DNA of 22,725 bases, taken from a virus. Location: the IMG/VR virus record IMGVR_UViG_3300025759_000754, positions 1-22,725 of that record. The stretch is one strand, 5' to 3'. The stretch's first letter is position 1. Each line of letters opens with the position of its first letter. Both the position numbers and the translations under genes were made by a program. A model generated the notes under the pieces. That model was not told the DNA's origin and made no database searches. It was given only the letters and a program-made list of their open reading frames with translations. Positions 3,064-21,225 of this stretch are shown here, in pieces.

Positions 3064-4928
3064 TAACGACCACCATCAGGATAGACATCCATTATAAAAG
3101 TACCCATTTTAAAGTTACCTCCTGCGGTATTACTTGTAATTTTAAAATTAGCTTGTCGACCACGACCTCTCATATCTTTTTTTGTATCGGTGGTGGCCAC
3201 CGTTAAGGCTGTTTGACTAACAACATTACCATAAGGATAGTTTTTAAAACTCCAAGTCACATCCACATCACCTGATTGATCTCTAAAGTCAGGAACAAAT
3301 TTTGCGATACGCATTAACTGTTCACCTCCTTCATCAATATTAAAATCACCTGATTGTATAAAAGACTGCATTACAGAACCATCAGCATCAACACCAAATT
3401 CTTGACGAAAGTAATTAGATGCACCATTAGATAAACCAATGACAGTGGGTGTTGTATTAACCGTTGTATCTGTTAAATATTCAGTAGCTAAAGGATTTTG
3501 AAATACACCACGGTCTACCCATGTTGTTCTATTCATTGATCCAATCGACCAAGATTGTTCTAAATAATTATAAACCACACAGCGATTAACTTGTGGTGAA
3601 GGATCGTTGTTAGGGTTAGTTACATAAAACCAAATAATTTCTGCAAACTCGGTATTCACTCCTGCAAAGATTTGATCGGTTTGTGTTAAATCTAAACTTT
3701 CAAAAACAAAATCATCAACAGTGCAAGGTATTTTTTTAACAGTACCATCAAAAGCAAAGAATGCATTCTGGCCCATCCAATAGGCTACGTCTCGCACGAC
3801 CACAGCAGCGTGTTGTCCTAAGAGTCCACAGTTACGACCTAATTGATTGAGTCCAAAAGTAAAAGGGGGACCAATAAACTGTAGTCCGTGAAGGGAGGTA
3901 TCTGTCCAAACTAATATTTGACCACGAGCTTTATCAGCACCAATAATAGTAGAACCGTCTTGTACTCGTAAGGAACCAGCAGTATTTTCTGCTCTCGGCT
4001 CATAAGTATTAATATCTTCTTGAGAAGAAAAACGTAATAAAAGAGGATCTTGAGAAGAACCTAAACCAATAGTTTTTTCTGTACCAAATAAAATTAAATG
4101 TCGATCAGGAGTGGAGACTAAAGAAAACTTAGAAGTAGTGGGTGCACTAGCAACTAAACTGGCTCTACCCGATAGTCCGTCCGTGGTCGGTGACCATTGA
4201 TACGTCGAACCATTCAAAACAGTTGCAATTAAAAGTTCACCGAAGTTATCTAAGGACCAGTCACGACCATCAAGGGTAACGGATGATGTCGAACGAGCCG
4301 TGCCCCATGTTTCGGTATTCCAAGTAGACGTACCCCAACCATAACCAAAAGTAGAAAAAGCAGGACCAACATTAATATCAAAAACAGCAGTTGCTGTTCC
4401 TGTTGTAGTTGAACCAGTGCTCTCAACACTATCTTGTTCAATAACAAAGGCATTGATATTTGTTACAGACTTAACTTCAAAACTACGATCAAAATCAGTT
4501 GCTGTAAAACTGGTACCGGATAAGCTAGTTGTTCCTGAAAAAGTAACAATGTCTCCTTGGTTTGCTCCATGACCATTAATATTAACGGTTACATTAGCAG
4601 AGCCACTGCTTGTTGTGAAAATACTTGTAACAGCGGTGTTTGTCTGTCTTATGGGAGTTATGTCGTAAAGAATATCGTTTGCATAAACGTATAACTTTTT
4701 GTCAGTGCCAATAGCTGCAAGCCTAGTTCCATCCAAAGAAACCCAGTGATGAGCATCACGAGCCACACCAATTAAACGACTGTCGGTTGTTTTTTCCCAG
4801 CCACCTATCTTCTCAGGTAAGCCATAACGAAAGCGAATATTGTCACCGTCCGTAAAACCACCAGACGCACCTAAATCACTGGTCTGTTTTTGGATCCCCG
4901 GTTTGAGTTGTATCTTTGTTAATGTCAT
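3063..4928 (-). CDS. Tail hub/nozzle beta-propeller protein (P22 gp10-like DNA stabilisation protein)
   Basis: A 621-aa structural protein. The N-terminus LKPGIQKQTSDLGASGGFTD, then GDNIRFRYGLPEKIGGW (residues 28-44), is the hallmark opening of the P22 gp10-like 'packaged DNA stabilisation' family of tail proteins. This is followed by propeller-like blades (SLDGTRLAAIGTDKKLYVY, VTLDGRDWSLDNFGELLIAT, FSLVSTPDRHLILFG, VRDVAYWMGQNAFFAFDG, NRCVVYNYLEQSWSIG). The end, MRGRGRQANFKITSNTAGGN then KMGTFIMDVYPDGGR, also fits nozzle-type tail proteins such as T7 gp12. It would sit below the connector and help close the DNA channel. About residues 105-190 look like an inserted Ig-like or beta domain. The gene begins inside the 3' end of the glycosyltransferase gene (53-base overlap in another frame). 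I keep that start because the family motif begins only a few residues after it. Confidence 0.8.
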   Translation of the reverse strand: MTLTKIQLKPGIQKQTSDLGASGGFTDGDNIRFRYGLPEKIGGWEKTTDSRLIGVARDAHHWVSLDGTRLAAIGTDKKLYVYANDILYDITPIRQTNTAVTSIFTTSSGSANVTVNINGHGANQGDIVTFSGTTSLSGTSFTATDFDRSFEVKSVTNINAFVIEQDSVESTGSTTTGTATAVFDINVGPAFSTFGYGWGTSTWNTETWGTARSTSSVTLDGRDWSLDNFGELLIATVLNGSTYQWSPTTDGLSGRASLVASAPTTSKFSLVSTPDRHLILFGTEKTIGLGSSQDPLLLRFSSQEDINTYEPRAENTAGSLRVQDGSTIIGADKARGQILVWTDTSLHGLQFIGPPFTFGLNQLGRNCGLLGQHAAVVVRDVAYWMGQNAFFAFDGTVKKIPCTVDDFVFESLDLTQTDQIFAGVNTEFAEIIWFYVTNPNNDPSPQVNRCVVYNYLEQSWSIGSMNRTTWVDRGVFQNPLATEYLTDTTVNTTPTVIGLSNGASNYFRQEFGVDADGSVMQSFIQSGDFNIDEGGEQLMRIAKFVPDFRDQSGDVDVTWSFKNYPYGNVVSQTALTVATTDTKKDMRGRGRQANFKITSNTAGGNFKMGTFIMDVYPDGGR

Positions 4929-5721
4929 TTGCTAAACTAAATATGGATCCAACGTGACCATTAAAATGCATGTTTCCATGATGTTGTAAAGGCGACGCGA
5001 CATCCGCCCATATCTTACCACCGATTTTAGACCATAGTCTAGAAAAATAATAGTCTTCACTGAGGTATCGATCGTCTTTGTCCCAAGGTAGCTTACCCAC
5101 TCCAAAGAAATCATAGCAATTATTAGATGCATAACGACCACCGTTAATAATTTGATCTGTTTTATACTGACGTTCGGGGTATGCTTTTTTCATCTTTTTG
5201 AAGACATCTCGTTTGATTAACATCATGCCTGTAGCGGCTTCTAAAACTTCACAAAAACCGTTTTTTAGTTCTATACCTTGTGGGTTTTCAAAATTTAAAT
5301 TATATCCCAAAGCTTTATAAGAAACTTCATCCTCTGTAATTTCAGGGTTTTTCTTTACTGCCTTAATCACTTGATCCCAGTGAATACATTTTCTTGGATA
5401 AATACCACAAGCAATATCTTTATCCGCTCTGATCAATCTTTCTATGTTTTCAGCCTTGAAACCAATATCGGCATCTATGAATAATAAATGTGTTCCCACA
5501 AAATTAGTATCGTCTAAAAACATGGATACAATGGTATTTCGAGCACGAGTGATTAAAGACTCATTACCCATCGTTTGTAGTTTCATTTCAACACCTTGGG
5601 TCAACATCCATTGTTGTGTATGAATTATTCCATGTAAAGTAGTCTCACTGAGCATTCCACCATACATGGGCATGCCTAAATAAATTCTAATATTATGATC
5701 TTTCAGATCGCCTTCTAACAT
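4876..5721 (-). CDS. Glycosyltransferase-like protein (GT-A fold, DxD), minus-strand copy
   Basis: A 281-aa paralogue of the plus-strand enzyme at 1272-2000. It has an N-terminal beta strand IRIYLGMPMYGG (11-22), NESLITRARNTIVSMFLD (53-70), LLFIDADIGF with the DxD at Asp83/Asp85, RADKDIACGIYPRK (98-111), ATGMMLIKRDVF (163-174), SEDYYFSRLW (221-230) and His247/His248. It is longer than the paralogue, with an insert after the YPRK block and a polar C-terminal tail (DINKDTTQTGDPKTDQ) encoded in the region that overlaps the propeller gene by 53 bases. GGAG precedes the ATG by six bases. The start overlaps the end of the upstream oxygenase gene by 7 bases, so the two enzymes are translationally linked. 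It probably transfers a sugar; whether to virion adhesins, host glycan or something else cannot be told from sequence. Confidence 0.82.
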   Translation of the reverse strand: MLEGDLKDHNIRIYLGMPMYGGMLSETTLHGIIHTQQWMLTQGVEMKLQTMGNESLITRARNTIVSMFLDDTNFVGTHLLFIDADIGFKAENIERLIRADKDIACGIYPRKCIHWDQVIKAVKKNPEITEDEVSYKALGYNLNFENPQGIELKNGFCEVLEAATGMMLIKRDVFKKMKKAYPERQYKTDQIINGGRYASNNCYDFFGVGKLPWDKDDRYLSEDYYFSRLWSKIGGKIWADVASPLQHHGNMHFNGHVGSIFSLANDINKDTTQTGDPKTDQ

Positions 5722-6398
5722 ATTTTACTCCATGTCTCAGGGCTTGGTAGACAGTGTTCTGACTTGATCCCTGATTTCATCGTTAATAAAACATCAGCAG
5801 AAATACTGATGCGTGGTCTTTCTTTTTGATTTTCTTCTGTGTAATGTAATAAATTACTTGGAAAAATAATCAATCCTCCTGTTTCTGAGGGATATTTAAC
5901 AGAAGCAAAGTTAATCTCACTCCACTTTGTAAAATAATTATTATTAGCAGGAATATACATTCCTGTTTTTTGCCACATATCTTCTTCAAAAGTTATGTTT
6001 CCTTGCTCTTCTGCTTCGACATAATAAACTAAACTGTAGTGACTTGCTGTATGTTTATGACTGGCTATGTGTTGTCCCTTTGTAGAAAAGGTAGCCCAAG
6101 CTTTAATAATATGAACATCAAAAACACTTAGATCATAATGATGTTCTGTTAAAAATAAGATTATTTTTTTTCTAATCTGACTAAATAATTTTTCAAAACG
6201 TTTATCAGTATGAAGATTATCTGTAATTTCCTGTAAGGGTGTATCTGATTTTATATCAGTTGTTTTAGCGAATTGTGAGTTAGTTGGTTTTACCTCTTGA
6301 TTAATTAATTCTTTAATATCTTTGTTAATCGTTTCGTAGTTATCTATCTTAGTAATAAATATAGGGTTGCCAAACCATTTCTTAATTTCGTACTGCAT
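5715..6398 (-). CDS. 2-oxoglutarate/Fe(II)-dependent oxygenase-like protein
   Basis: A 227-aa protein resembling the phage and marine-bacterial 2OG-Fe(II) oxygenase family (TIGR02466 / PF13759 type), which hydroxylates a protein or small-molecule substrate using O2 and 2-oxoglutarate. WATFSTKGQHIASHKHTASH (101-120) followed by YSLVYYVEAE gives the first histidine cluster on the double-stranded beta helix, with the HKH at 114-116. GGLIIFPSNLLHYTEENQ (174-191) gives the distal His185, and RPRISIS (194-200) supplies the arginine that would bind the 2OG carboxylate. An EED acidic trio lies at 138-140. The exact metal ligands need alignment. AAGGAG with a 5-base spacer sets the start. It overlaps the downstream glycosyltransferase gene and follows the glycine-rich adhesin gene, so a hydroxylated then glycosylated acceptor is conceivable but unproven. 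Confidence 0.8.
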   Translation of the reverse strand: MQYEIKKWFGNPIFITKIDNYETINKDIKELINQEVKPTNSQFAKTTDIKSDTPLQEITDNLHTDKRFEKLFSQIRKKIILFLTEHHYDLSVFDVHIIKAWATFSTKGQHIASHKHTASHYSLVYYVEAEEQGNITFEEDMWQKTGMYIPANNNYFTKWSEINFASVKYPSETGGLIIFPSNLLHYTEENQKERPRISISADVLLTMKSGIKSEHCLPSPETWSKIC

Positions 6399-8131: not shown

Positions 8132-10564
8132 CTATCTTGCTGTGACAGGCAACCCTCCTGATGTAACGAATGGATTCTCTGCGAAGGCCATGTAAATCAT
8201 TGTGCCACCATTTACACCAACACCTGAACTTCTTATTTTAATTCCATTACTTAAAAAATCTATAGGTTGGCTATAGGTATTTTCTGCATTTGGTAAATTT
8301 GCATTTAAATTATTTGAAATTACATTGTATGTATCTCTAGCACTGTCAAACATATACCAATCATATCCAACACCACCAGTAGTAGAATTTTTACACATGA
8401 AAAAAGCAGGTCTAAACCCAGTATAGACGAATGTTCCGTCAGTATTTGCATTCCCTATATAGCTACCGAACTTGCCATATCCTTCTACGTTATTAAAACA
8501 ATACATTATATAATTATTTCCATTAGTATTTACTTCCGACCTAGTACCAATAGACACTGTTGTTGATGTAGGAGCAATATCATTCCACCAACCTGCACCA
8601 TTAACACCACCATAAGCATCATATAAATTTAATCTTAACGCATTAGTAAAACCTAAAGTGTTTGTCATTTGAACACCCCAATCTGCACTTGATGACCTAT
8701 TCTTTACGATAACCATATCTGGAACAACACCGAGTCCATGACCAACAGTAGCATTACTTCCTGTTCCTGTATAAGTGACTATAGAAAATCCTGCAGTGGT
8801 ATTAGCTTGAACTGTTGAGGTAATACTTCCGTCTGTGTTCGATGAAGTCGTGCCACCATTGGCTTTCCATGCCCATAAAACCAAAGGTTGAGAACTTCCA
8901 TTAATTCCTGCAGTTGAACCTACTTCTACTGTATTAGTTCCAACACCTCTTACTCCTGCACCAGTTGTGAGATCAGCTTCAGCCGAGTTTGCATTAGAGT
9001 AAAGTCTTTTTGATGAAGCGACTGTTGCACCTCTACTTGTATCCCATAATTGATGCCAATTAGCTGCTAGATTTCTTTCTTTAAACCACATAAAATCTGC
9101 TTGTAAATCAGAATTTCCGTTAAAAGTTAATGTCTGTGTACTACCATTTCCGTCAAAAGTTAATGTTTGGAAATAAACACTCCCATCATCAATCGTAGGA
9201 GATAATGCAGTTGCTAAATTAGCTGAGTTTAAAGATAAAAATCCTGTTGGGGGTGCGTAGTAGAAGTCACCATAGCCATTTCCGTCTGCGTTTCCTTGTG
9301 CAGTTTCTGTTCCTGCAAAACTTCCGTCTTGTCCAAAGTTTGGAATCATTATATTTCCACCAATACTAGTGTCAGAACGTATTTGAAAGAATGGTACATA
9401 TTCTGATGCAGTTAAATCAATGCCAGAAATACTTTCATTAGTTCCTGCACTAGGATCACCAGTAGCACTACCTGAATTATTATAATATGTGCCATTGATA
9501 CCAAACCAAATTTTGCCATTATCAAAATCTACTGCAATATTAATAATATTGCCACTACTCGCAGTTGGTGATGTACCATTATATGTTCCATCTTTGTAAT
9601 ATAGACTTGCCCAAGATAAAAAAGCATAATTATTAAATAAACTTGACACTGGATCACCACTTACTCCTTTACCATTTAAAACAACAGTTTGTGATGCTTC
9701 ATTACCTATCCATCCAGCCACGCATCTGAAGGTTGCTTCGGTATTACTCATACGCACTTCGTGATACCACTTACCACTTTTGACACCAAAAGTGCCAATA
9801 GTACCATCCCAATTTCCAGTTCTTGAAGTAGTTAATTTTAAATTACCTTCTGATAATGAAGTATTTGCCATTGGTAAAATCGTAGCAAAAACATTACTTG
9901 GTGCATCTGTCGTCTGACGACCACTACCTGACTTGGTAAAATTGTTTCCATTCCCGGAGCTATCGGCTCCCAAATCACCACTGTTAGAAAACTTTAAATA
10001 AAAACCATTAGTGCCGTACGATCCTGAATATCCTTTAGGTTTCCATATACCTGTGGAATCAGTCTGACCAAAGTCGGTAGGGGATAATGCTTGTCCGTCT
10101 ATGTTATAGATATCGGAGAAATATCCTTCGAAATAATTACTACTATCTAGTCCACCTATCTCATTTTGATTAGTGGAATTCCATAGACACGCTGTAGAAT
10201 TTAAAGTAGGAGTGCTTGAAAAAGTTATATCTACTTGAGATCCATTAACATATACTTTCATTCTATCGGAACCTGTAGCTTCTGTTGTATCTAAAACTGT
10301 TACAATGTGATACCAAGCTGAAGTATCCCTAAAAACTTGATTTGTAGAAGTATTACCCTTACCAGTAGTTCCTCCTGTATCAAAATAAAGTTTATTATCT
10401 GGATAAAAACTAACGTAAAATCTATTTTGTGATGTACCGTCGTAGGCATGAAACAGACTTTGTAAAGTATCTAACCCTGATCTTTTTAACCAAAAACTTA
10501 ATGTAAATCTTTTATTATCTGTTGGGCCACTACTTGGCGTTCTTGCTAATTTTGTACTAGCCAT
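8132..10564 (-). CDS. Large adhesin: LamG + SPRY + DUF7483-like domains (cassette III)
   Basis: An 810-aa predicted carbohydrate- or receptor-binding virion protein. Residues 15-165 are a LamG/concanavalin-like jelly roll (FTLSFWLKRSG, AWYHIVTVLDTT, MKVYVNGSQV, GYFSDIYNIDGQAL). Residues 185-215 are a linker with LGADSSGNGNNFT. Residues 255-415 are a SPRY-like domain (GVKSGKWYHEVRMSN, NIAVDFDNGKIWFGINGTYY). After YAPPTGFLSLNSANLATALS (436-455), residues 460-810 form a C-terminal phage domain that I know as DUF7483, with GHGLGVVPDMVIVKNRS, DGTFVYTGFRPAFF and the terminal IYMAFAENPFVTSGGLPVTA. It is homologous over its whole length to the protein at 14514-16850 and to the split pair at 11346-13735. 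It is coupled by TAATG to the IPT protein upstream. There is no catalytic motif, so binding rather than hydrolysis is inferred. Confidence 0.85.
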   Translation of the reverse strand: MASTKLARTPSSGPTDNKRFTLSFWLKRSGLDTLQSLFHAYDGTSQNRFYVSFYPDNKLYFDTGGTTGKGNTSTNQVFRDTSAWYHIVTVLDTTEATGSDRMKVYVNGSQVDITFSSTPTLNSTACLWNSTNQNEIGGLDSSNYFEGYFSDIYNIDGQALSPTDFGQTDSTGIWKPKGYSGSYGTNGFYLKFSNSGDLGADSSGNGNNFTKSGSGRQTTDAPSNVFATILPMANTSLSEGNLKLTTSRTGNWDGTIGTFGVKSGKWYHEVRMSNTEATFRCVAGWIGNEASQTVVLNGKGVSGDPVSSLFNNYAFLSWASLYYKDGTYNGTSPTASSGNIINIAVDFDNGKIWFGINGTYYNNSGSATGDPSAGTNESISGIDLTASEYVPFFQIRSDTSIGGNIMIPNFGQDGSFAGTETAQGNADGNGYGDFYYAPPTGFLSLNSANLATALSPTIDDGSVYFQTLTFDGNGSTQTLTFNGNSDLQADFMWFKERNLAANWHQLWDTSRGATVASSKRLYSNANSAEADLTTGAGVRGVGTNTVEVGSTAGINGSSQPLVLWAWKANGGTTSSNTDGSITSTVQANTTAGFSIVTYTGTGSNATVGHGLGVVPDMVIVKNRSSSADWGVQMTNTLGFTNALRLNLYDAYGGVNGAGWWNDIAPTSTTVSIGTRSEVNTNGNNYIMYCFNNVEGYGKFGSYIGNANTDGTFVYTGFRPAFFMCKNSTTGGVGYDWYMFDSARDTYNVISNNLNANLPNAENTYSQPIDFLSNGIKIRSSGVGVNGGTMIYMAFAENPFVTSGGLPVTAR

Positions 10565-11343
10565 TACACAAAACTCATTGACTCAAAGATGCCAACTTGG
10601 ATCGTGATCGAAAATGCACGATCGGCTGTTTGACTCTCTTGGTCAGTGCCTCGTAAAGTAAAGTTATATGTTGTTTCATTCGTGATTGAGCTACTCTCCG
10701 TACCAGCAATATACACTGTGTTCTGAGTGCTTCCAAGACTTAAACCTGTGGGTAGACTTCCTGATACCTGACTAAAGTCCACTGCAGAGTCAGAACTGGC
10801 TGTGACCGCTACGTTAATTGATGCTCCTTTATCAAACGTACCTAAGGTTCCTGAAGCCGTGACAAAAGTAACACCGTCAGAGACAGTGAGATCAGCAGCT
10901 GTGGATCGAACCGCTAGACCATTGGGATTTTCAATTCTGATAAAATAGTTTGCGTTTGTTGCTAAAGTAACATTGATTGTTAAAGAAGTAGAACTATTAA
11001 AAGTAATACTATTTGGTGTGAAAACATCACCATCGCTTGCAATGATTTCTATAATAGGCATGTTGGTAAAATTTGATCCTGTAATGGTAATATCGGTTGC
11101 TGTACTTGGCTCGATTGTGTCAGGGGAAATCGAAGTATAAACAGGAGCCGAAGCGGTTGTTAAAACATTACCTGATAATCGGTTATCATCTAAAGTTCCT
11201 GTGGTAATATTACTCGCATTTAATCCTGTCAGGCCATTGCCATCCAAGGTCCCTGTTACGTTGACCGTGCTACCTGCATTACCGAGAGTGAGGGTAGAAC
11301 TGGATTGAGGTAGAATAGTATCGACTTGAATTTCACTAGCCAT
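10564..11343 (-). CDS. IPT/TIG plus Ig-like (He_PIG type) fibre protein (cassette III)
   Basis: A 259-aa beta protein, probably extended on the virion surface. Residues 1-66 are fibre-like (QVDTILPQSSSTLTLGNAG, then TVNVTGTLDGNGLTGLNAS and TTGTLDDNRLSGNV). Residues 68-154 match an IPT/TIG immunoglobulin-like domain (YTSISPDTIEPSTATDITIT, GSNF, NANYFIRIENPNG). Residues 165-250 match a cadherin-like or putative-Ig (He_PIG) domain with the diagnostic SGSLPTGLSLGS and DRAFSITI. Its paralogues at 13735-14517 and 16850-17626 have the same layout, and each is followed by the LamG-type adhesin. The small protein may be the shaft or adaptor for the large one, but that is inferred from pairing only. 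It begins two bases after the upstream stop. Confidence 0.85.
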   Translation of the reverse strand: MASEIQVDTILPQSSSTLTLGNAGSTVNVTGTLDGNGLTGLNASNITTGTLDDNRLSGNVLTTASAPVYTSISPDTIEPSTATDITITGSNFTNMPIIEIIASDGDVFTPNSITFNSSTSLTINVTLATNANYFIRIENPNGLAVRSTAADLTVSDGVTFVTASGTLGTFDKGASINVAVTASSDSAVDFSQVSGSLPTGLSLGSTQNTVYIAGTESSSITNETTYNFTLRGTDQESQTADRAFSITIQVGIFESMSFV

Positions 11344-11345
11344 GA

Positions 11346-12401
11346 TTATCTCGCTGTTCCTGCTAAACCATTAGATCCGACTAAAGGAAACTCGGCAAAG
11401 GCCATGTAGATTATTGTTTCACCACTTGCGTTTTGACCACCATCACTTGTTCTTAATTTAAATCCATTACTTAAAATATCTAAAGAATCAAAACTACCTT
11501 CAGCAAGAGAATCATTTGCTCTTAAATATAAATCAGTTGGATTTCTTGTATCTCTAGTTGTATCCCACATCCACCATATAGCACCTGCCGTACTTCTGCT
11601 TGTATTTTTATACATAATAAAAGAAGGTCTAAACCCAGTATAGACGAATGGTCCGTCATTGCTTCCATTACCTGTGTAAGAACCAAACTTACTATATCCT
11701 TTTACTTCTGCGAAACAGTAGGCGATTGTTGCTTGACCACTTAAATTATTATTATATCCACCACCAATAACACCAAAGACTGTTGAATTAGGTGTAGATG
11801 TTCCCCAATAATTAGAAATTGTAGCAGTAGACGCAGTTTCGTTAAGTTGTACTGTTTTATCTTTACCTAAGTCTTTATTGTAAATTTGCCAAGCACTTGC
11901 ACTATCTCTTGATTTGGTAATGACCATAGCAACAGTGCTACCTAACCCATGTCCGACTGTACCTGCAGTTCCTGTTCCCGTGTAAGTGACAACACTAAAA
12001 CCAGAAGTTGTGTTAGCTTGAACAGTCGAAGTTATAGATCCATCGGAATTAGACGAAGTAGTTCCACCATTGGCTTTCCAATGCCACGAAGCATAAGTAG
12101 TTCCTGATTGACCTGAATTGTCTTTATTCCCTGTGGTAAACCCATCACTATCAAAACTATTTAAACCTTCTGTTTCTGTACTTTCAGATGCATTTGAATT
12201 TGTTACTAATGGTTTTTGAACACCCCTAGAACTATCATATAAAGTATGTGAATGAGGTTGTGACCTTGCTTTAGTCCATACCCAATCAGGTTGAAATCCA
12301 ACACCTGTTATTGATTGACCACCACTTCCTATTGCAGTTCCATCACCTGTATATAAAACAGTATTAAAAAAATCTCTTGGTTGAAAACTAATATATGCCA
12401 T
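11346..12401 (-). CDS. Stand-alone DUF7483-like adhesin part (C-terminal half of the split cassette II protein)
   Basis: A 351-aa protein equivalent to the C-terminal region of the 810- and 778-aa adhesins. It has TGVGFQPDWVWTKARSQ, WHWKANGGTTSSNSDGSI, TGTVGHGLGSTVAMVITKSR-type motifs, DGPFVYTGFRPSFIMYKN and the end IYMAFAEFPLVGSNGLAGTA. It starts MAYISFQPRDFFNTVLYTGD, where the full-length relatives run on from a SPRY domain through an ASVLSPTIGDGSQYF-type linker. Its ATG overlaps the stop of the LamG-SPRY gene as TAATG, so both halves are probably made from one transcript by coupled translation and may reassemble. All conserved motifs are intact, so it does not look like a decaying remnant. 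Confidence 0.82.
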   Translation of the reverse strand: MAYISFQPRDFFNTVLYTGDGTAIGSGGQSITGVGFQPDWVWTKARSQPHSHTLYDSSRGVQKPLVTNSNASESTETEGLNSFDSDGFTTGNKDNSGQSGTTYASWHWKANGGTTSSNSDGSITSTVQANTTSGFSVVTYTGTGTAGTVGHGLGSTVAMVITKSRDSASAWQIYNKDLGKDKTVQLNETASTATISNYWGTSTPNSTVFGVIGGGYNNNLSGQATIAYCFAEVKGYSKFGSYTGNGSNDGPFVYTGFRPSFIMYKNTSRSTAGAIWWMWDTTRDTRNPTDLYLRANDSLAEGSFDSLDILSNGFKLRTSDGGQNASGETIIYMAFAEFPLVGSNGLAGTAR

Positions 12402-13735
12402 TATCCATAACTCGCTATATTTTTAGTACACAATGCATAATACCCTGTTGGAGGAGCATATTCAAATATTCCGATACCTGCATCATCTGCGTTACCTGAT
12501 GATACAGCAGTTGTTCCGAAATAGCCATTGCCGAAGTTAATATCTAAAACATAAGATGTTGAACCACTACCATTGACAGTTCCAACAACATAATTATCAC
12601 CTGTTTTAACTGTAAAACTATGTGCGGTTGCATTTGAAAAATCTGCTTGGTCAAATCCCCCACCTAATCCGTCATTCCAAAGACCATTTTTTCCTACATA
12701 AAAATTTCCATTGTCTATATCAAATGCAATCATAAGAATATCACCATTTGATACACCGCCACCTAAACTTCCTTGTAAACTTCCATTTAGATATAGATTT
12801 GGAATACTTCCATAGACTCCTGCTGTGTTTGATGCAGTGAAAAGATTGGAAGAAGCAGGGTGTAAATTTTGTGGAACAACACCCAACCAAGCAGAAACTC
12901 CTGTTACTTCACATTCAAAATACCATTGACCACTTGATACTCCTAAAGTTGTATTAGATGAAAGTCCACTTGCTGGTTGTGATAGTGTTGTATTTCCCAG
13001 ACTTAATGTTGGAGGAACTGATGTACTTTTATCAAGAGCATTCCAAGTAGGAAAAACATTAGTCGGTGTGTCTTTAGTTTGGGTTAAGGTTCCACCGCCC
13101 ACGGACCAAGTGTTACCATTGCCTGAACTGTCGGTTCCCATTGCTCCTGAGTTTTCCATTTTTAAAAAGAATCCGTTAGTACCATAGGTCACTGAAGGAG
13201 CTGTTTTAGGTATCCAAATTCCTGTGGTGGAATCTGTTTGTCCAAAATCAGAAGCAGCGTATTGAGTGCCATCGGTGAAATGTACATGAGCCATATATCC
13301 ATCATAATAAGCAGAACCACTATATGCTTGACGACCTATTCCATGACCAACTGTATTATTATAAGCATAAGAACCTGACAATGAAGAACGATTATCAGTA
13401 GAAAAATCAGTAACTAAAGAACCATTTATATAAAGTTTTGCTCTATCTGATGCTGTTCCTTGTGTTGTATCAAAAGCAAATACAATATGATACCAAGCAG
13501 AAACGTCTCTAATTCTTTGAGAGGTTAGAAAAAAAGTTGTTGCATCTGTTCCAAAAATTATTTGGTCATTGTTTGTAATAGTTAATCTAATATCATCTGC
13601 AGCACTACTTCCCGCATTCCAAAGTGTTTGATAACTACCTGTGCTAATAGCTGACCTCTTAATCCAAGCACTCCAAGTCCAAGTTGTTCTATTACTTGCA
13701 CTGCCGGGTGTTCTTGTTAAATATGTACTTGCCAT
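12401..13735 (-). CDS. LamG + SPRY adhesin part (N-terminal half of the split cassette II protein)
   Basis: A 444-aa protein with a LamG-like jelly roll at about 15-160 (TWSAWIKRSAI, AWYHIVFAFDTTQGTASDRA, KLYINGSLV, YMAHVHFTDGTQYAASDFGQ) and a SPRY-like domain at about 265-425 (VSSGQWYFECEVTGVSAWLG, MIAFDIDNGNFYVGKNGLWN). It ends IFEYAPPTGYYALCTKNIAS then YG and a TAA stop. The 778-aa paralogue has YAPPSGYLALCTKNLASVLS at the same place and continues into the C-terminal domain, so the stop falls exactly at the domain boundary. The sequence around the stop does not contain a standard -1 slippery heptamer; termination and re-initiation at TAATG is the simpler way to couple the two halves. Confidence 0.82.
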   Translation of the reverse strand: MASTYLTRTPGSASNRTTWTWSAWIKRSAISTGSYQTLWNAGSSAADDIRLTITNNDQIIFGTDATTFFLTSQRIRDVSAWYHIVFAFDTTQGTASDRAKLYINGSLVTDFSTDNRSSLSGSYAYNNTVGHGIGRQAYSGSAYYDGYMAHVHFTDGTQYAASDFGQTDSTTGIWIPKTAPSVTYGTNGFFLKMENSGAMGTDSSGNGNTWSVGGGTLTQTKDTPTNVFPTWNALDKSTSVPPTLSLGNTTLSQPASGLSSNTTLGVSSGQWYFECEVTGVSAWLGVVPQNLHPASSNLFTASNTAGVYGSIPNLYLNGSLQGSLGGGVSNGDILMIAFDIDNGNFYVGKNGLWNDGLGGGFDQADFSNATAHSFTVKTGDNYVVGTVNGSGSTSYVLDINFGNGYFGTTAVSSGNADDAGIGIFEYAPPTGYYALCTKNIASYG

Positions 13736-14517
13736 TAGTTAAATTGTCCTCCGTTCAGTATACCTGTAGATATGGTGATTGAAAAGGCTCGATCGGAAGT
13801 CTGGCTTTCTGCATCGGTTGCTCGGAGTGTAAAGTTATAGGCTGTATCGGAAGTATCACTTCCTGATTCCGTACCTGAAATAGTGGCGGTATTCGATACA
13901 GTAGATCCTAAGGTTAAGCCTGTGGGTAGACTTCCTGAAACTAAAGTGATGTTGACGGCTGAGTCGGATGTTGCGGAAACATCGACACTAATCGCAGATC
14001 CTTGATCAAAGGTTCCCAAACTACCCGCAGCCGTAGTAAAACTAGGTGCTTGAGATACTGTTAAATCGGCATTCGTTGATCGTACCGACTGACCGTTATT
14101 GTTTTCAATTCTAATAAAATAATCCGTTTCTGTGGTGACATTAACGTTCGCTGTTAGTGATGTTGAACTATTAAAGGTTACTTTGTCGGCTCGAAGAATA
14201 GCTCCTGTTCCAGAAATCAATTCGACAACAGGAACGGATACAAAGTTTGTTCCAGTAATGGTTAGATCGGATGCTGTGCTAGGTTCGATCGTTGTTGGAC
14301 TGACTGAAGTGTAGGTGGGAAAATCGGTGGTGAGAACCACTTGTCCTGATAGTCGAGCATTAGCCAGAGTACCAGAGGAAATATTATCAGCGTTTAATCC
14401 TGTGAGTCCACTACCATCTAAGGTTCCTGTCACGTTAATCGTGCTTCCTGCATTACCTAAGTTAAGGGTTGTTCCACTTTGAGGTAAAATAGTATCTGCT
14501 TTAATTCTACTGGTCAT
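13735..14517 (-). CDS. IPT/TIG plus Ig-like fibre protein (cassette II)
   Basis: A 260-aa paralogue of the proteins at 10564-11343 and 16850-17626. It has the fibre-like N-terminus ADTILPQSGTTLNLGNAGST and continues NVTGTLDGSGLTGLNADNI. An IPT/TIG domain follows (YTSVSPTTIEPSTASDLTIT, GTNFVSVPVVELIS, DYFIRIENNNGQSVRS), then an Ig-like He_PIG-type domain (GSLGTFDQGSAISVDVSAT, VSGSLPTGLTLGS, DRAFSITIS). The C-terminal tail is GILNGGQFN, corresponding to GIFESMSFV and GITEGMRFS in the paralogues. The start overlaps the stop of the 778-aa adhesin as ATGA. It is followed by the split LamG adhesin. It shares a 20-base identical word with the cassette III copy (13919-13938 and 10745-10764). Confidence 0.85.
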   Translation of the reverse strand: MTSRIKADTILPQSGTTLNLGNAGSTINVTGTLDGSGLTGLNADNISSGTLANARLSGQVVLTTDFPTYTSVSPTTIEPSTASDLTITGTNFVSVPVVELISGTGAILRADKVTFNSSTSLTANVNVTTETDYFIRIENNNGQSVRSTNADLTVSQAPSFTTAAGSLGTFDQGSAISVDVSATSDSAVNITLVSGSLPTGLTLGSTVSNTATISGTESGSDTSDTAYNFTLRATDAESQTSDRAFSITISTGILNGGQFN

Positions 14518-16850
14518 CGTGCAGTCACTGGCCTTCCCGTGCTATCGACAAATGGATGTTCAGCAAATGCCATGTAGATATATGTGCCACCTGATGCGTT
14601 CCAGTCTGCTGATGTAGTTCTTGTTTTAAAACCATTAGATGTAAAATCATGCATTATAATTGATGAACTTTCTGCTGCATTTGAATTAGGGTCTAATCTT
14701 GCATCAGTTGGATTAAATGTGTTTCTTGTTGCATCATCAATATGCCAATCACCAGTGGTATCTGTTCTTTTAATTAAAACAAAAGAAGGTCTAAACCCTG
14801 TATAGACGAATGTTCCGTCTGTACTTCCATTCCCTTTGTACTTGCCAAACTTGCTATATCCTTCTATTTCTGCAAAAACATAAGACACAAAGTTATCACC
14901 AGAACTATTAAATTCAGTATTGTTAGTAAGATTTGGTAATGTAATAGTTGTTGAACTAAAAGTACAAGGAAGATTGCCATCATCCCCACCAGTGTCAAAT
15001 TGCATTCTATCAAAAATTGTACTTCCAAATATCTGCCAAGTCACTGCTTGGTCTCTATTTTTGTGAATCATAATCTTTGGAGTTATCCCTAGACCATGAC
15101 CTAATGACTGACTTGGTGTTCCATTACCAGTCCAAGTTAAAATTGAGAAACCACTAGTTTGAGATACTTGAACTGTTGTAGTAATATCTCCGTCTGTGTT
15201 CGATGAAGTCGAACCACCATTGACTAACCAGTTCCAAGTTACATAAGTTCTACTATTAAAATAAAATTCACCACTATTAATAGAACCTTCAACAACTGTC
15301 ATTCCACCATTTCTAGCACTTACAGTTGTATCTATTAAATTACCAGATGCAGTTGTTTCACTAACATTCCTATTACTACTTAACATTTTTGTTTCATTAT
15401 ATCCTCTTGATGAGTCAAAAAGAAAATGTGCTTCAATATTATTTCTATTTTTTCTCCAAGAAAAATCAGGTTGGAAACTTAGGTTACCAAGATTATAAGT
15501 ACCATTTGATGATGATGCAGTGTCTAAATAAGTATCAAAATACTGACTCCCATCACCAATCGTAGGAGATAAGACACTCGCTAAGTTCTTGGTACAGAGT
15601 GCGAGATAGCCACTAGGGGGTGCGTATTCAAAGTTTCCATATCCATTGTCGTCAGTATTACCGGATGTGATTGCGAATGAGGGATTGCCAAAGTTTACTT
15701 CAGTTATACCTATCCCAGTTGTTGTATTATCCCAAACTACAAAATTCCAAGTTTTTGATGTGTCAATTCCTGTAAACGCATCACCTTGAGAAACTCCATT
15801 TAAATAAAATGTTATTGTTCCATTATCGGCATCATATAATAAACTCACTATATCATTTGATGAAATAGCAGTACCATAAGCAGTGCTAGTTCCACCACTA
15901 CCTTCATAAGGTATTTTATCTCCATTCTTTTTATAAAAATAACCATACAAACTTAATGAATTTGCTCCTTGATTCCAAGTATCTAATTCTATTATTCCAA
16001 AATTTTGAAAACCACTAACATCAGTTGGTTTCATTTCACAATACCATTTACCTGTAGTCATACTAAAGGTTGATACTCCACTGTTATCTATTGTTTCACT
16101 AGAAGCACCATTAATTTTTAAATTACCTTCGCTTAATGTATAAGCACCTCTGATTAAAGGATTCAAAGTAGCAAAATTATTATCAGGAGTATCGGTTACT
16201 TGATCACCACTACCATTTTTTGTGAAATCATTTCCATTACCTGAACTATCTGTTCCCAAACTTCCAGAGCTAGCAAACTTTAAAAAGAAACCATTGGTGC
16301 CATACGTGACGCTTGGTGTTGTTTTTGGTTTCCATTGACCGTTAGTATCAGTTTCACCAAAGTCCGATGCTTGATAAGCAGTGCCATCGGTAAAATTATA
16401 ATGAGCCAAAGTAAACTCACTATATCTAACAACATCATTGTATCTACCTATGTGATGTGCGTTGGTGCTATTTACCCATGTACTTTCATTTTGAGGGAAA
16501 TCACCATAGTCTTGATTAAATGTAACTTGCTCACCGTTAACATATAATTTTACTCTGTTGGACGCACTTGCTTGAGTCGTATCGACAGCAAGAACTATGT
16601 GATACCAAGCAGACACATCTCTAAAAACCATGTCGGTTACGTAACCATAGTCCGTGCCACTGTCGGCATGATATATATAAAACTTATCGTTTGTTCTCCA
16701 TCCAATAGAATACCATTGACTTGCGTTTAAAAAAACATCCATGAGAGTAGTCGTATAGGCTAGTGTATGTCTTTTTACCCAACAAGATATTGTGTAAGTT
16801 CTTCTGTCTCCTTGACTACTTGGTGTTCTTGATAAATACGTATCAGCCAT
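14514..16850 (-). CDS. Large adhesin: LamG + SPRY + DUF7483-like domains (cassette I)
   Basis: A 778-aa paralogue of the 810-aa protein at 8132-10564. The LamG-like part is at about 15-165 (YTISCWVKRHTL, AWYHIVLAVDTTQASASNRV, KLYVNGEQV, LAHYNFTDGTAYQASDFGET). Then come the LGTDSSGNGNDFT linker and a SPRY-like domain at about 255-405 (FSMTTGKWYCEMKPTD, VSLLYDADNGTITFYLNGVS). After YAPPSGYLALCTKNLASVLS comes the C-terminal DUF7483-like domain (LGNLSFQPDFSWRKN, QSLGHGLGITPKIMIHKNRD, DGTFVYTGFRPSFVLIKRTD, ending IYMAFAEHPFVDSTGRPVTA). It follows the IPT protein at 16850-17626 by TAATG and overlaps the next IPT gene by ATGA. It probably binds host-surface glycans; the ligand cannot be told. Confidence 0.85.
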   Translation of the reverse strand: MADTYLSRTPSSQGDRRTYTISCWVKRHTLAYTTTLMDVFLNASQWYSIGWRTNDKFYIYHADSGTDYGYVTDMVFRDVSAWYHIVLAVDTTQASASNRVKLYVNGEQVTFNQDYGDFPQNESTWVNSTNAHHIGRYNDVVRYSEFTLAHYNFTDGTAYQASDFGETDTNGQWKPKTTPSVTYGTNGFFLKFASSGSLGTDSSGNGNDFTKNGSGDQVTDTPDNNFATLNPLIRGAYTLSEGNLKINGASSETIDNSGVSTFSMTTGKWYCEMKPTDVSGFQNFGIIELDTWNQGANSLSLYGYFYKKNGDKIPYEGSGGTSTAYGTAISSNDIVSLLYDADNGTITFYLNGVSQGDAFTGIDTSKTWNFVVWDNTTTGIGITEVNFGNPSFAITSGNTDDNGYGNFEYAPPSGYLALCTKNLASVLSPTIGDGSQYFDTYLDTASSSNGTYNLGNLSFQPDFSWRKNRNNIEAHFLFDSSRGYNETKMLSSNRNVSETTASGNLIDTTVSARNGGMTVVEGSINSGEFYFNSRTYVTWNWLVNGGSTSSNTDGDITTTVQVSQTSGFSILTWTGNGTPSQSLGHGLGITPKIMIHKNRDQAVTWQIFGSTIFDRMQFDTGGDDGNLPCTFSSTTITLPNLTNNTEFNSSGDNFVSYVFAEIEGYSKFGKYKGNGSTDGTFVYTGFRPSFVLIKRTDTTGDWHIDDATRNTFNPTDARLDPNSNAAESSSIIMHDFTSNGFKTRTTSADWNASGGTYIYMAFAEHPFVDSTGRPVTAR

Positions 16851-17626
16851 TAACTAAACCTCATCCCTTCTGTTATACCAACATCAATAGTGATTGAAAA
16901 GGCACGATCAGAAGTTTGTGACTCTTGATCCGTTGCTCTGATTGTAAAATTATAGGTCGTTGCTGCAATAATAGAACTGCTTTCGGTGCCTGCAATATAA
17001 ACGGTATTTTGTGTGCTTCCTAAACTCAGTCCTGTCGGTAGGGTGCCTGACTGCACACTAAAATCAACAGCCGAATCAGAGCTTGCTGTAATGGCTACGT
17101 TGACTGCATCTCCTTTTTCAAAAGTACCTAAGGTGCCTGCCGCTGTTGAGAATACAGGAGCCGTAGAAACTTGTAAGTCAGCGTTGGTGGAACGAGTCGC
17201 TAAACCTGAATCGTTTTCAATACGAATATAATAATCACCGGCGGTAGTAATATTCGTGCTAGCAGTAACATTGGAAGAACTATTTAAAGTAATGGTATTA
17301 GGTTTAAGAATAGCACCTGTTGTATTCACAAATTCAAAAACTGTTGTGGCTGTAAATCCTGTTCCTAAGATTGTTACGTCTGTTGTTGTGGAAGGTTCAA
17401 TGGCGGTTGGTGAAATAGAAGTGTAAGTTGGTGATTGACCAAGAAGTGTAACATTACCTGATAGACGAGCATCGGCTAACGTTCCTGAACTGATGTTGTC
17501 AGCATTGAGTCCTGTTAATCCGTTTCCGTCTAACGTACCTGTTACATTAACAGTGCTCCCTGCGTTTCCTAATTGAAGGGTACTGGAACTTTGAGGTAAT
17601 ATTGTATCGACTTCAATTTGTGACAT
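16850..17626 (-). CDS. IPT/TIG plus Ig-like fibre protein (cassette I)
   Basis: A 258-aa member of the triplicated family. The N-terminus is EVDTILPQSSSTLQLGNAGS followed by NVTGTLDGNGLTGLNADNI and SGTLADARLSGNV. The IPT/TIG domain is at about 68-152 (YTSISPTAIEPSTTTDVTIL, GTGFTATTVFEFVN, DYYIRIENDSGLATRS). The Ig-like He_PIG-type domain is at about 165-248 (GTLGTFEKGDAVNVAITAS, QSGTLPTGLSLGS, DRAFSITID), and the tail is GITEGMRFS. It is the first adhesin cassette gene in transcription order and overlaps the upstream 149-aa gene by TAATG. Its C-terminal domain is almost identical in protein sequence to that of the cassette III copy (VDFS...LPTGLSLGSTQNTVYIAGTE), closer there than to the adjacent cassette II copy. 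Confidence 0.85.
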   Translation of the reverse strand: MSQIEVDTILPQSSSTLQLGNAGSTVNVTGTLDGNGLTGLNADNISSGTLADARLSGNVTLLGQSPTYTSISPTAIEPSTTTDVTILGTGFTATTVFEFVNTTGAILKPNTITLNSSSNVTASTNITTAGDYYIRIENDSGLATRSTNADLQVSTAPVFSTAAGTLGTFEKGDAVNVAITASSDSAVDFSVQSGTLPTGLSLGSTQNTVYIAGTESSSIIAATTYNFTIRATDQESQTSDRAFSITIDVGITEGMRFS

Positions 17627-18075
17627 TAAATAACGACTAATGTACCTGTGACGGTAACATTTCCTGTAACTGACACAGGACCTGCTAAAACAGCCGAAGC
17701 AATAGTTTGGTCTTCTGTAATAATAGTATCATGTGTATTAATAAAAGTGGTTGCATCCATTCCTGCGGAAGGAGTTTTACTGGCGGGTAAAGTACAAATA
17801 ACTGTTTTTTCACCTGCTGCGAAATCTACTTTATTGTCAGCGTTTGATGATGAGATAACCGTGTCTCGTGATAAGGTATCGGGAGTAGCATCGGTAATTG
17901 TACCATAGCCCACTTCCCACTGATCATCGAGAAAAATAGAATAATAAGTTTGATTAGTATCTCCAACTCCAGCAACAAAAGTTTCAAATCCTTCAACTGC
18001 ACCATCTAAATCAAAAGTGCCTGTTCCTGTGGTTGTACTAGTTTCTTTTACACGATCATTTAAAATAAAAGCCAT
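17626..18075 (-). CDS. Fibre-adaptor-like structural protein (149 aa)
   Basis: The protein starts MAFILNDRVKETSTTTGTGT and continues DLDGAVEGFETFVAGVGDTN, with YYSIFLDDQWEVGYGTITDA, TPDTLSRDTVISSSNADNKV and VDFAAGEKTVICTLPASK at about 44-100. I recognise this as a recurrent module in marine phage late operons, usually next to fibre genes and sometimes as the N-terminal part of larger fibres. The C-terminal TIASAVLAGPVSVTGNVTVT then GTLVVI looks like a short beta-helix or trimerisation segment similar to the TGN repeats of the fibre at 7335-8117. It has no enzymatic motif. It is coupled by TAATG both to the repeat protein upstream and to the first adhesin cassette downstream, so it may link the cassette proteins to the tail. 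Confidence 0.78.
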   Translation of the reverse strand: MAFILNDRVKETSTTTGTGTFDLDGAVEGFETFVAGVGDTNQTYYSIFLDDQWEVGYGTITDATPDTLSRDTVISSSNADNKVDFAAGEKTVICTLPASKTPSAGMDATTFINTHDTIITEDQTIASAVLAGPVSVTGNVTVTGTLVVI

Positions 18076-19067
18076 TAAGCGACCTCTCTGTCATCTACGT
18101 CTGTCCATACATTTGTAGCAGAATCATCGACTTCTGTCCACGCATTAGTGTTGCTGTCATCGACAGGGGTCCAAGCGTTCGTGACTCCCGGGACCACAGG
18201 CGACCATGCAATAACACCTACGCCTGTTTGAGCAACTGATAATTCAATACCTGTTGGAATTACAATTGCTGAACCAGTAGCTACAACGCTTCCTTGAGCT
18301 GTGCTTAAAGCTTCGCCTGTAACATCGACATCTGCTCCTGCTTGAACTTCTACAGAACCTTGAATGATGGTTAACGGAATACCTGTTAAAGTAACGAAAG
18401 CCGAACCAGTGACAGTTTCATCACCAATCGCAGGTGTGAGTTCTTCGCCTGTAACATCAACCTGAGCCCCCGCTGATACAACAACGCTTCCTTGAGTAGA
18501 AGATAAAGCTTCGCCTGTAACAGGTACATTAGCATTTGCTATTACATTTTCGTCTCCAATAGATAATGTTAAATCTTGACCAGTAAGTTCGACAACTGCA
18601 GAACCTGTAACAACAGATTCACCGATTGAAGTTTCAATTAAAGCTTCTGCTCCAACGACAATGGTTGTTTGACCACCAGCAGAAATTGAATAGGGACCAA
18701 TTGCAAAGGACATGCTTTCACCAGTCGGGAAAGCAGTGATGTCAGGTAAGAAGACAGTAACATCTCCTTGAGTAGAAGAAACAGCTTCACCAGTTGGGAA
18801 GACGGTAGCTCCTGTTGCTGTTGCAACAGAGCCTTGAGCACTAGATAAGATTTGTCCAGTAACAGTAACATTAGCATCCCCACTTATGGTTGCGTTACCA
18901 ATTACTGAGTTAAGAGCTTGACCTGTTAGAGAAACAGTAGCATTTCCTACAACTGTGGTTGTACCAAAAGCTGTAGATAATGCTTGTCCAGAAACAAGAA
19001 CGATAGCATTCTTACTTCCTTGAGCACTAAACGAATCTTCAGCAAAGGTTGTAGTTCCAAAAAACAT
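18075..19067 (-). CDS. 22-residue-repeat beta-solenoid-like protein with an 11-residue Trp-repeat tail
   Basis: A 330-aa repeat protein of unknown function. After a short start (MFFGTTTFAEDSFSAQGSKN), residues 20-287 form twelve repeats, nearly all 22 residues long, of the type A.V.VTGEALSS.QGSV.V.(A/T)G. The TG pairs fall at residues 48, 70, 92, 115, 162, 184, 206, 228, 250 and 272, with degenerate copies at 26 and about 138. Residues 288-330 switch to four 11-residue repeats with Trp at exactly 288, 299, 310 and 321 (AWSPVVPGVTN, AWTPVDDSNTN, AWTEVDDSATN, VWTDVDDREVA). The pattern suggests a beta-solenoid or beta-roll rod with a distinct acidic tip. It lies between the 148-aa and the 149-aa structural genes, so a virion fibre or spike part is likely. 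Upstream is a 43-base gap with inverted repeats. Confidence 0.78.
   Translation of the reverse strand: MFFGTTTFAEDSFSAQGSKNAIVLVSGQALSTAFGTTTVVGNATVSLTGQALNSVIGNATISGDANVTVTGQILSSAQGSVATATGATVFPTGEAVSSTQGDVTVFLPDITAFPTGESMSFAIGPYSISAGGQTTIVVGAEALIETSIGESVVTGSAVVELTGQDLTLSIGDENVIANANVPVTGEALSSTQGSVVVSAGAQVDVTGEELTPAIGDETVTGSAFVTLTGIPLTIIQGSVEVQAGADVDVTGEALSTAQGSVVATGSAIVIPTGIELSVAQTGVGVIAWSPVVPGVTNAWTPVDDSNTNAWTEVDDSATNVWTDVDDREVA
18078..18209 (-). repeat. Four tandem 33-bp coding repeats (11 residues, Trp at each)
   Basis: Residues 287-330 of the same protein. Trp is spaced exactly 11 residues apart four times, with the following VDD retained in the last three. The period is half that of the preceding 22-residue repeat. 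Confidence 0.85.
18207..19010 (-). repeat. Twelve tandem 66-bp coding repeats (22 residues each)
   Basis: This is the DNA stretch coding residues 20-287 of the repeat protein. The period is 22 residues with two or three one- or two-residue insertions in the middle repeats. The consensus core is (V/L)TG(E/Q)(A/D)L(S/T)S.(Q/I)G, then a strand and a G(A/S) turn. Confidence 0.85.
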
Positions 19068-19559: not shown

Positions 19560-20222
19560 TTATTTACCTCCGGGATCTACTGATCTAAGAGGAATACGGA
19601 GGACCCCATCTGCGTATTCATCTCTGCGTTTTCTGCCCATTTGAGTTTGTGCTAAATTTTGCACTGCCTGAGCATACTTTTGTTCGTATAATTGCACATA
19701 TGGAGGATTTTTCAAGTAGGAAAAAGCTTCTGCTGTTGTGCCATAAATTAAAACTTCGGGTGCGTTGGTAGACAACCAAGTAGTTGTGTTAGAACTAGAT
19801 AAATGATCAGGTGTTTTGTTATACCATAATTCAATCTCATAAGCTAAATCGGGTGTAGGAGCGAATATCATCGTATTCTGATCCCAGTTTGCATAATATT
19901 TTGGCTTTCCTGTGTCGGAACGATCCACATTATACTCATCAATAAAGGTAGTATCCCTTTGTTCTAGCCATGTTCGATCCCCCGTAATTTGATCTTTTAT
20001 CTGAACTCCTCGCTCAAATGCAAAATCATCAGGCATCGTGATAAAAGGACTACCAATGGTGAAACTAGAAAACTGAAACTTTCGAAAAGCATCGAGGTCA
20101 AGTTCTCTTTGAATTTTGTTTTCTACATTTACAATAAATACATCAATAATAGAATCTGATAATACTTCAGACCCTACTTCTGTGTAGTTTCTTACATTTG
20201 TTAATAGTTCAGAATAATTCAT
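19560..20222 (-). CDS. Head-tail connector/adaptor protein (phage SU10 adaptor-like)
   Basis: A 220-aa protein with the layout of the SU10-type adaptor family that sits under the portal. The helical start MNYSELLTNVRNYTEVGSEV leads to SIIDVFIVNVENKIQRELDL DAFRK (24-48). A beta segment ITMPDDFAFERGVQI follows (61-75), then TWLEQRDTTFIDEYNVDR and TGKPKYYANWDQNTMIFAPT at about 84-123. YEIELWYNKTPDHLS (128-142) comes next, then TWLSTNAPEVLIYGTTAEAF (148-167) and the helix QLYEQKYAQAVQNLAQTQMG. The pattern ENKI.R.L.....R, LP.DF, G.P.YYA..., TWLS.NAP..L.YG and YE..Y is what I know for this family. It follows two further connector-region genes and overlaps the 112-aa gene as ATGA. Confidence 0.82.
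   Translation of the reverse strand: MNYSELLTNVRNYTEVGSEVLSDSIIDVFIVNVENKIQRELDLDAFRKFQFSSFTIGSPFITMPDDFAFERGVQIKDQITGDRTWLEQRDTTFIDEYNVDRSDTGKPKYYANWDQNTMIFAPTPDLAYEIELWYNKTPDHLSSSNTTTWLSTNAPEVLIYGTTAEAFSYLKNPPYVQLYEQKYAQAVQNLAQTQMGRKRRDEYADGVLRIPLRSVDPGGK
19566..19571 (-). promoter_or_regulatory. Strong ribosome binding site of the 148-aa gene
   Basis: GGAGGT on the minus strand lies eight bases before the ATG at 19557 and is embedded in the last Gly-Gly codons of the upstream adaptor gene. It is one of the strongest Shine-Dalgarno matches I saw in the window, fitting a protein needed in quantity. Confidence 0.7.
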
Positions 20223-20557
20223 GAGATCACCACTGTTACTGTGCCTGCTGCTACAGACATTTTTGTATCTTTATTTTTAGTCAATGGTTGCATTCCTGTC
20301 GATAAAAAAGTGTTGATGCTTGTGCCGTCTGTTGGTGGGTACACTGTTGTATCGGCAACCTGACCTTTAGCCATTTGTAAAGCTTCACGGTCTGTTGATT
20401 GTTTTTTTGTTTGAATTAATTGTGGATGCTTGGGCTCGAATTCTGAAACATGGACAATGGAACCGTTCCATTCTTTCACCATTTCTTTATAGGGGAAAGC
20501 TGCTCCCGAGCGATCGGATATTCTTTGTGAATATTTACCTGTTGCGTATTTTGCCAT
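20219..20557 (-). CDS. Small connector-region protein, unknown function (112 aa)
   Basis: The protein starts MAKYATGKYSQRISDRSGAA and continues FPYKEMVKEWNGSIVHVSEF, then EPKHPQLIQTKKQ, a polar middle and a beta-type end MSVAAGTVTVVIS. The first 50 residues, with S.RSG.AFPY.EMV.EWNG..VH.SEFE.KHPQL, are, from memory, a highly repeated motif in short phage proteins lying between the two adaptor-type proteins in marine phages. No function is known to me. Overlaps (TAATG on the upstream side, ATGA on the downstream side) tie it to both adaptor genes, so a part in head completion or tail joining is likely. Confidence 0.75.
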   Translation of the reverse strand: MAKYATGKYSQRISDRSGAAFPYKEMVKEWNGSIVHVSEFEPKHPQLIQTKKQSTDREALQMAKGQVADTTVYPPTDGTSINTFLSTGMQPLTKNKDTKMSVAAGTVTVVIS

Positions 20558-21225
20558 TATGAACCTACAAAGTAATTTTGAGGTGTAAGGAATACACTAT
20601 CTCTACCACCGTCAGTATCTGCGGCTCTTTTCCAAACATCTTCGTATTCAAATTTTAAATCTGCCATACGTTCAGGAGCTTTTTTCATTGCAATGTAATA
20701 TGCAAGTCCTGCTACTAAACAAGGATAAAATCTAAAAGGTAAATCGGTCGTGTTTGTGTATGCTCCCGCATCTTGTATTCTAGTTAAGGCGTTGTAAACA
20801 ATCGTATATGATTGATCCGCCGCCGGATAAAAGTACATGACTGGATTAATCTGACCGTCGAAAAAGAACTGAGTTGGTCTTCCTGTTGTTGATTTAACGG
20901 GAGTATTTAAGTATTCAGCTCTACTGATTTTATCCACGGTGTAATCAGTGGTTCCATCTCGAACAATAACATCCAAAACATCAACGATATCAGAAGCAAA
21001 ATCAGCAGTGTTACTTTGATCATTTGTGGATATTGTGGCCGTTCTTTGTTTAATCGTCCAAACATTAATCCCACGGTTTGCCCATTCAGCAAACATGATA
21101 TTAAGAACGCGTCTAGCAGAGTGTATGTCATATCCAGTACGAGTCTGAAGACCACATCTCTCATATGCTTCTTCTATAGCATCATCAATACTTAGATTAA
21201 AATCAGTTGTTCCCGAAGTTGCCAT
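20557..21225 (-). CDS. Head-completion/tail-accessory protein (P22 gp4-like)
   Basis: A 222-aa mostly helical protein resembling the gp4-type head-tail connector of short-tailed phages. The N-terminal helix LSIDDAIEEAYERCGLQTRT then GYDIHSARRVLNIMFAEWAN (11-50) is the typical signature. NVWTIKQRTATIS, IVDVLDVIVRDGTTDYTVDK and ISRAEYLNTPVKSTTGRPTQ provide the beta part. YFYPAADQSYTIVYNALTRI (131-150) and FRFYPCLVAGLAYYIAMKKA (164-183) form the next blocks, with a C-terminal helix DLKFEYEDVWKRAAD. It is expected to bind below the portal and complete the DNA exit channel. It begins with the TAATGGC junction, overlapping the stop of the tiny 41-aa gene. Confidence 0.8.
   Translation of the reverse strand: MATSGTTDFNLSIDDAIEEAYERCGLQTRTGYDIHSARRVLNIMFAEWANRGINVWTIKQRTATISTNDQSNTADFASDIVDVLDVIVRDGTTDYTVDKISRAEYLNTPVKSTTGRPTQFFFDGQINPVMYFYPAADQSYTIVYNALTRIQDAGAYTNTTDLPFRFYPCLVAGLAYYIAMKKAPERMADLKFEYEDVWKRAADTDGGRDSVFLTPQNYFVGS

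Follow-up and report, generated by a model that had tools for sequence, protein, structure and literature searches.

An array of three tagged fibre cassettes in a marine tailed phage, with head domains that appear to be exchangeable

Adjacent genes encode several receptor-binding proteins in the branched tailspike complex of the Ackermannviridae, where TSP1-4 have position-specific conserved N-termini and the tailspikes exchange receptor modules (PMC8432352, PMC11414711). The array described here has the same arrangement of adjacent genes. Its cassettes consist of an Ig-like stem (A) and a head (B) with a LamG/SPRY half (BN) and a DUF7483 half (BC). The cultured pelagiphages HTVC201P, HTVC011P, HTVC121P, Greip and Skadi have an A tip, BN and BC in the same order, but in one copy, with A fused to a long tail fibre and without slot tags; the B genes of Skadi are hypervariable. 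Each genome of the cultured SAR11 phages HTVC103P and HTVC104P contains two complete A-BN-BC cassettes with two other genes between them, and no anchor gene was found beside the cassettes. HTVC023P shares the anchor and the slot tags with the window phage, at the same place, but its tagged fibres (gp59-62) are four genes with glycine-rich bodies, annotated only as hypothetical proteins. In its main text, the paper describing 80 genomes of the HTVC023P type is silent on tail fibres, receptors and tandem arrays. Host-recognition genes are variable parts of marine phage genomes in metaviromic islands, and the passages on islands in that paper do not describe slot structure, tags or domain-level exchange (PMC3909814).

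The window, the whole 22,725-nt stretch of DNA analysed, is an incomplete record, 22.7 kb of late genes, and our findings on virion parts are limited to it. A DNA search against known phages gave no match for the window. Three tandem A+B fibre cassettes occupy 17626-8132, all on the minus strand. The original prediction of three two-gene cassettes with units of about 3.11, 3.17 and 3.21 kb and an identical domain order agrees with the ORFs, exact to the base, with the spacing of the DNA repeats (3.11/3.17/3.21 kb) and with Pfam. In slot 1, the stem A1 (16850-17626, 258 aa) begins with a tag at 17513-17626 (MSQIEVD...) and is followed by a fused head, B1 (14514-16850, 778 aa), with LamG and SPRY at ~15567-16850 and DUF7483 at ~14514-15566. 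In slot 2, A2 (13735-14517, 260 aa; tag MTSRIKAD at 14404-14517) precedes a head in two genes, B2N (12401-13735, 444 aa, LamG/SPRY, phrog_27411) and B2C (11346-12401, 351 aa, DUF7483, phrog_24898). Slot 3 consists of A3 (10564-11343, 259 aa; tag MASEIQVD at 11230-11343) and the fused LamG, SPRY and DUF7483 head B3 (8132-10564, 810 aa). Neighbouring genes either overlap, at TAATG or ATGA, or have gaps of a few bp between them. Directly upstream of slot 1 lies a small gene of 149 aa (17626-18075, minus strand), the anchor or 'base' gene, with homologues at other loci.

Gene A comprises a 38-aa N-terminal tag and two Ig-like domains (He_PIG and a weak TIG in Pfam), and the AlphaFold model of A (pLDDT 89.6) matched tandem Ig-like domains. 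Pfam found Laminin_G_3, a weak SPRY and a strong DUF7483 (E 1e-94 to 1e-118) in B, the LamG part being a laminin-G/ConA-like domain. The heads gave full-head profile matches to phrog_19943 (E down to 1e-153), phrog_27411 and phrog_24898, which places them among the DUF7483/LamG heads of marine phages. No mention of DUF7483 was found in the searched literature. The fold search with B recovered SPRY and laminin-G folds; whole-chain matches were poor because the model was only moderately confident (pLDDT 71.9). Between the copies, identity is 76-89% in the tag, 64-68% in A, 38-43% in the LamG/SPRY half and 44-46% in the DUF7483 half. The three copies are only 60-75% identical in DNA, and an assembly artefact is therefore very unlikely.

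B2 is split at a genuine stop/start junction (TAATG), and B consists of two genes in 139 of 146 A-bearing cassettes. Thus a frameshift in copy 2 can be ruled out: the split of the middle copy is not damage, the split form is the rule, from which B1 and B3 depart by being fused. A single ORF of 1012-1038 aa encodes A, BN and BC together in contigs L019 and L008. The tail fibre of T7-like pelagiphages has the A domains as its C-terminal tip, and the BN and BC genes come next. These arrangements indicate that one cassette corresponds to one fibre. The DUF7483 protein of the middle slot has an insertion (~485-500 aa compared with 350) in L201 (12140-13627), L183, L189, L204, L209 and L230, a slot-specific feature of this subgroup. 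Synechococcus phage S-B68 (L252) has one LamG/SPRY part and three tandem DUF7483 in a single protein (12288-16538; 80203-84537 of the record).

A scan of IMG/VR contigs found many arrays with two or three cassettes, and a homologue of the anchor, 60-80% identical, lay directly upstream in 21 of 21 three-cassette loci. Because loci had otherwise been chosen by the cassette itself, an independent sample was drawn by the anchor gene (n=74 loci). A tagged fibre adjoined the anchor in 72 of the 74, and exactly three tagged fibres were present, irrespective of fibre type, in 15 of the 16 with at least 5.5 kb downstream; some third tags in this set (MSSILKVDTIQDQ) were scored by eye because the profile missed them. 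The other locus, L340, had no tagged fibre at all. The cassette-selected set had three tagged genes in 12 of 17 loci and four in 4 of 17. The anchor also occurs as a domain: an 879-aa fibre of phage CRP-603 has it as its N-terminal part. Fibre types without an A tip were found at L284, L294, L299 and L293, and the slots of one phage may hold mixed types (L286, L301, L218, L210). L095, L099, L101 and L103, which are most closely related to the window by a core protein (80-100%), have other tagged fibres in this position. The triplication in the original prediction is real, but it is not peculiar to the phage of the window: our data indicate that three tagged fibres behind a conserved anchor, whatever their type, are the rule in a large group of marine phages, for the most part known from metagenomes. 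Cultured HTVC023P has four tagged fibres and 023Pt_psg01 has three. The window and HTVC023P are 43% identical in the core protein and 62% in the anchor, and the neck genes and tagged fibres have the same order in both, a homologous order of structural genes as expected of an HTVC023P-type phage.

Other genes near the array were also annotated. A 330-aa protein at 18075-19067 has degenerate repeats of the VTGEALSTAQGSV type; its homologue lies behind the array in L187, L221 and L239, and before it in the window and L173. Two SU10_adaptor genes (PF24175) close together, at 19560-20222 and 20557-21225, encode paralogous head-tail adaptors. Extra fibres in phage PhiGT1 have been associated with a dual tail-tube protein (PMC10386132). 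Two glycosyltransferase-like proteins, both phrog_1574, are encoded on opposite strands (4876-5721 and 1272-2000). A 2OG-Fe(II) oxygenase (PF13759) lies at 5715-6398, and relatives have several such genes beside the fibre locus.

Head identity was independent of stem identity until stems exceeded ~80% (all cassettes). In 31 pairs of cassettes the stems were 85-98% identical, yet DUF7483 was at most 45% identical, and equivalent heads were found in different slots of different contigs. L195 and L221 share 5.6 kb at 99.4% identity, ending ~30 nt inside BN1, at the border of A and BN. Beyond this border, the LamG part of slot 1 in L195 is unlike either, and SPRY and DUF7483 are mostly 92-100% identical to slot 3 of L221. 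The examples of shuffling are mostly metagenome contigs. Among cultured phages, Greip and HTVC204P are 94% identical in A and 55-57% in the heads, and slot 2 of HTVC103P and HTVC104P is 89% identical in A and 51-58% in the heads. Comparison of the window with the two contigs nearest to it showed no shuffling; A1 is 99% identical in both, and part of B1 is 96% identical in one. In Skadi-1, published read recruitment placed a hypervariable region at 13,646-15,713 (PMC10504331), and we located BN at 14408-15730 and BC at 13353-14408. On our own reading of these two sets of coordinates, the region covers BN and most of BC, stops at the stem and spares A. Our comparisons indicate that stems are conserved and that heads move between slots and between phages.

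Part of a head in the window seems to have moved in this way. Over the SPRY module of B3 (aa 227-441, 9242-9886, minus strand), DNA identity to contig L085 is ~97%; the edges are sharp, and in the flanks identity is at the background of 40-75%, mostly 45-60%. L085 encodes a lambda-J-like central tail fibre and a distal tail protein, and its tail type therefore differs from that of the window phage. The contig is short and might be a chimera, yet its head flanks do not resemble those in the window. The module differs from L085 by 19 nonsynonymous and 6 synonymous changes; dN/dS is ~0.9, not different from neutral, so that positive selection was rejected.

These results bear on plain tandem duplication, in which a cassette was copied twice and the copies diverged, the heads faster, with no exchange and no meaning in the number three. 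The three A stems of the window fall in a single clade with those of L173 and L175 (support 100/98) and are therefore related within the lineage, as duplication would have it. A single clade of the three DUF7483 halves was not rejected (p 0.23), in trees that are weakly resolved, and faster evolution of heads is seen everywhere; both agree with duplication. However, monophyly of the three LamG/SPRY halves was rejected (AU p 1.2e-11), and for that half duplication is already contradicted. The LamG/SPRY heads therefore look, in part, like the unrelated acquisitions that the original prediction had set against duplication, the A stems do not, and 'one amplified adhesin unit' does not describe the array. 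The imported SPRY module, and the unrelated types of three tagged fibres that occupy the same slots in other phages, also argue against duplication alone, which we consider unlikely.

The tags differ by slot. In 13 non-redundant three-fibre loci, same-slot tags had an identity of 0.486, compared with 0.416 between slots (0 of 1000 permutations). Immediately before V[DN], 69 of the 74 tags adjoining the anchor have E and 85 of the 91 later tags have K; in the window this residue is E, K and Q in slots 1, 2 and 3, respectively. The tags thus appear to be slot-specific, with E in slot 1 and K (or Q) in slots 2 and 3. Third codon positions are only 0.29-0.58 identical over the window tags and the residues just after them. 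Because these positions are saturated, recent gene conversion can be ruled out and the likeness of the window tags is attributed to selection. No description of such tags was found in the searched literature, which leaves out most subscription journals.

Phage fibres are normally trimers. The fixed number three and the complementary charges of the tags might therefore suggest a single heterotrimeric fibre, with one chain per slot and with E tags pairing with K tags through their charges. However, the slots of one phage may hold quite different types of fibre, which is awkward for a trimer beyond the tag, and some loci have four tagged genes. We give this arrangement a still lower probability than duplication. 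Least probable of all is one displayed adhesin with two silent donor copies and switching by gene conversion, which would agree with the movement of heads between slots and with boundaries at conserved joints, but not with copies that are all intact and tightly coupled by TAATG/ATGA joints, each keeping its own type of tag under selection with third positions saturated, in an array without inverted repeats. The DNA repeat scan of the window found no inverted repeats in the array, and no reverse transcriptase or invertase was found among the window proteins scanned with Pfam and PHROGs; a diversity-generating retroelement or an invertible fibre switch within the 22.7-kb window was therefore rejected.

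We favour the view, and consider it probable, that the locus encodes a receptor-binding platform with three conserved slots and exchangeable heads, in a marine phage that is tailed, podovirus-like and of the broader HTVC023P/pelagiphage kind. The order and number of the cassettes, the slot tags, the decoupling of stem and head, the movement of heads and the domain-sized import in copy 3 can be read from the sequence. On this platform, the small anchor protein on the tail would carry three fibres, and the tags of ~38 residues would dock them at separate positions on the anchor or tail. We infer docking on the anchor from the position and conservation of the tags. Each two-domain Ig-like stem would carry at its tip a LamG-SPRY-DUF7483 head of one or two polypeptides, and the displayed heads would bind receptors on the host surface. 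The host is presumably SAR11 or similar. Recombination at the conserved boundaries between stem and head and between LamG and SPRY may renew specificity while the docking part stays. Both functions suggested in the original prediction, several adhesins on one particle and a reservoir for recombination, are consistent with such a platform.

The resemblance to the Ackermannviridae lies in position-specific conserved N-termini, here the tags, and exchangeable C-terminal modules. Pfam and PHROGs scans of A and B found no XD/gp10-like or tailspike families, and the array is therefore not a member of the Ackermannviridae type. It also differs in its Ig-like stem, in its LamG/SPRY/DUF7483 heads encoded by one or two extra genes, and in its separate anchor gene. 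The adaptor genes of the window are of the SU10 type, unlike those of contractile tails. The array is probably analogous to the Ackermannviridae complexes rather than homologous with them.

Host recognition is very poorly understood in phages that infect SAR11 and other streamlined marine bacteria of this sort. The recurrent short slot tag may be a handle for finding receptor-binding proteins of uncultured phages, and it would allow combinations of heads to be read and the role of multi-fibre display in setting host range to be tested. The hypervariable region of Skadi would be explained as an exchangeable head, cut off at the border of stem and head. It is quite possible, and we propose it tentatively, that a large group of SAR11-type marine phages shares a fixed three-slot dock with charge-coded tags, E in slot 1 and K in slots 2 and 3, and that heads pass from slot to slot and across tail types one domain at a time, which would give each phage a combinatorial set of three receptor specificities.
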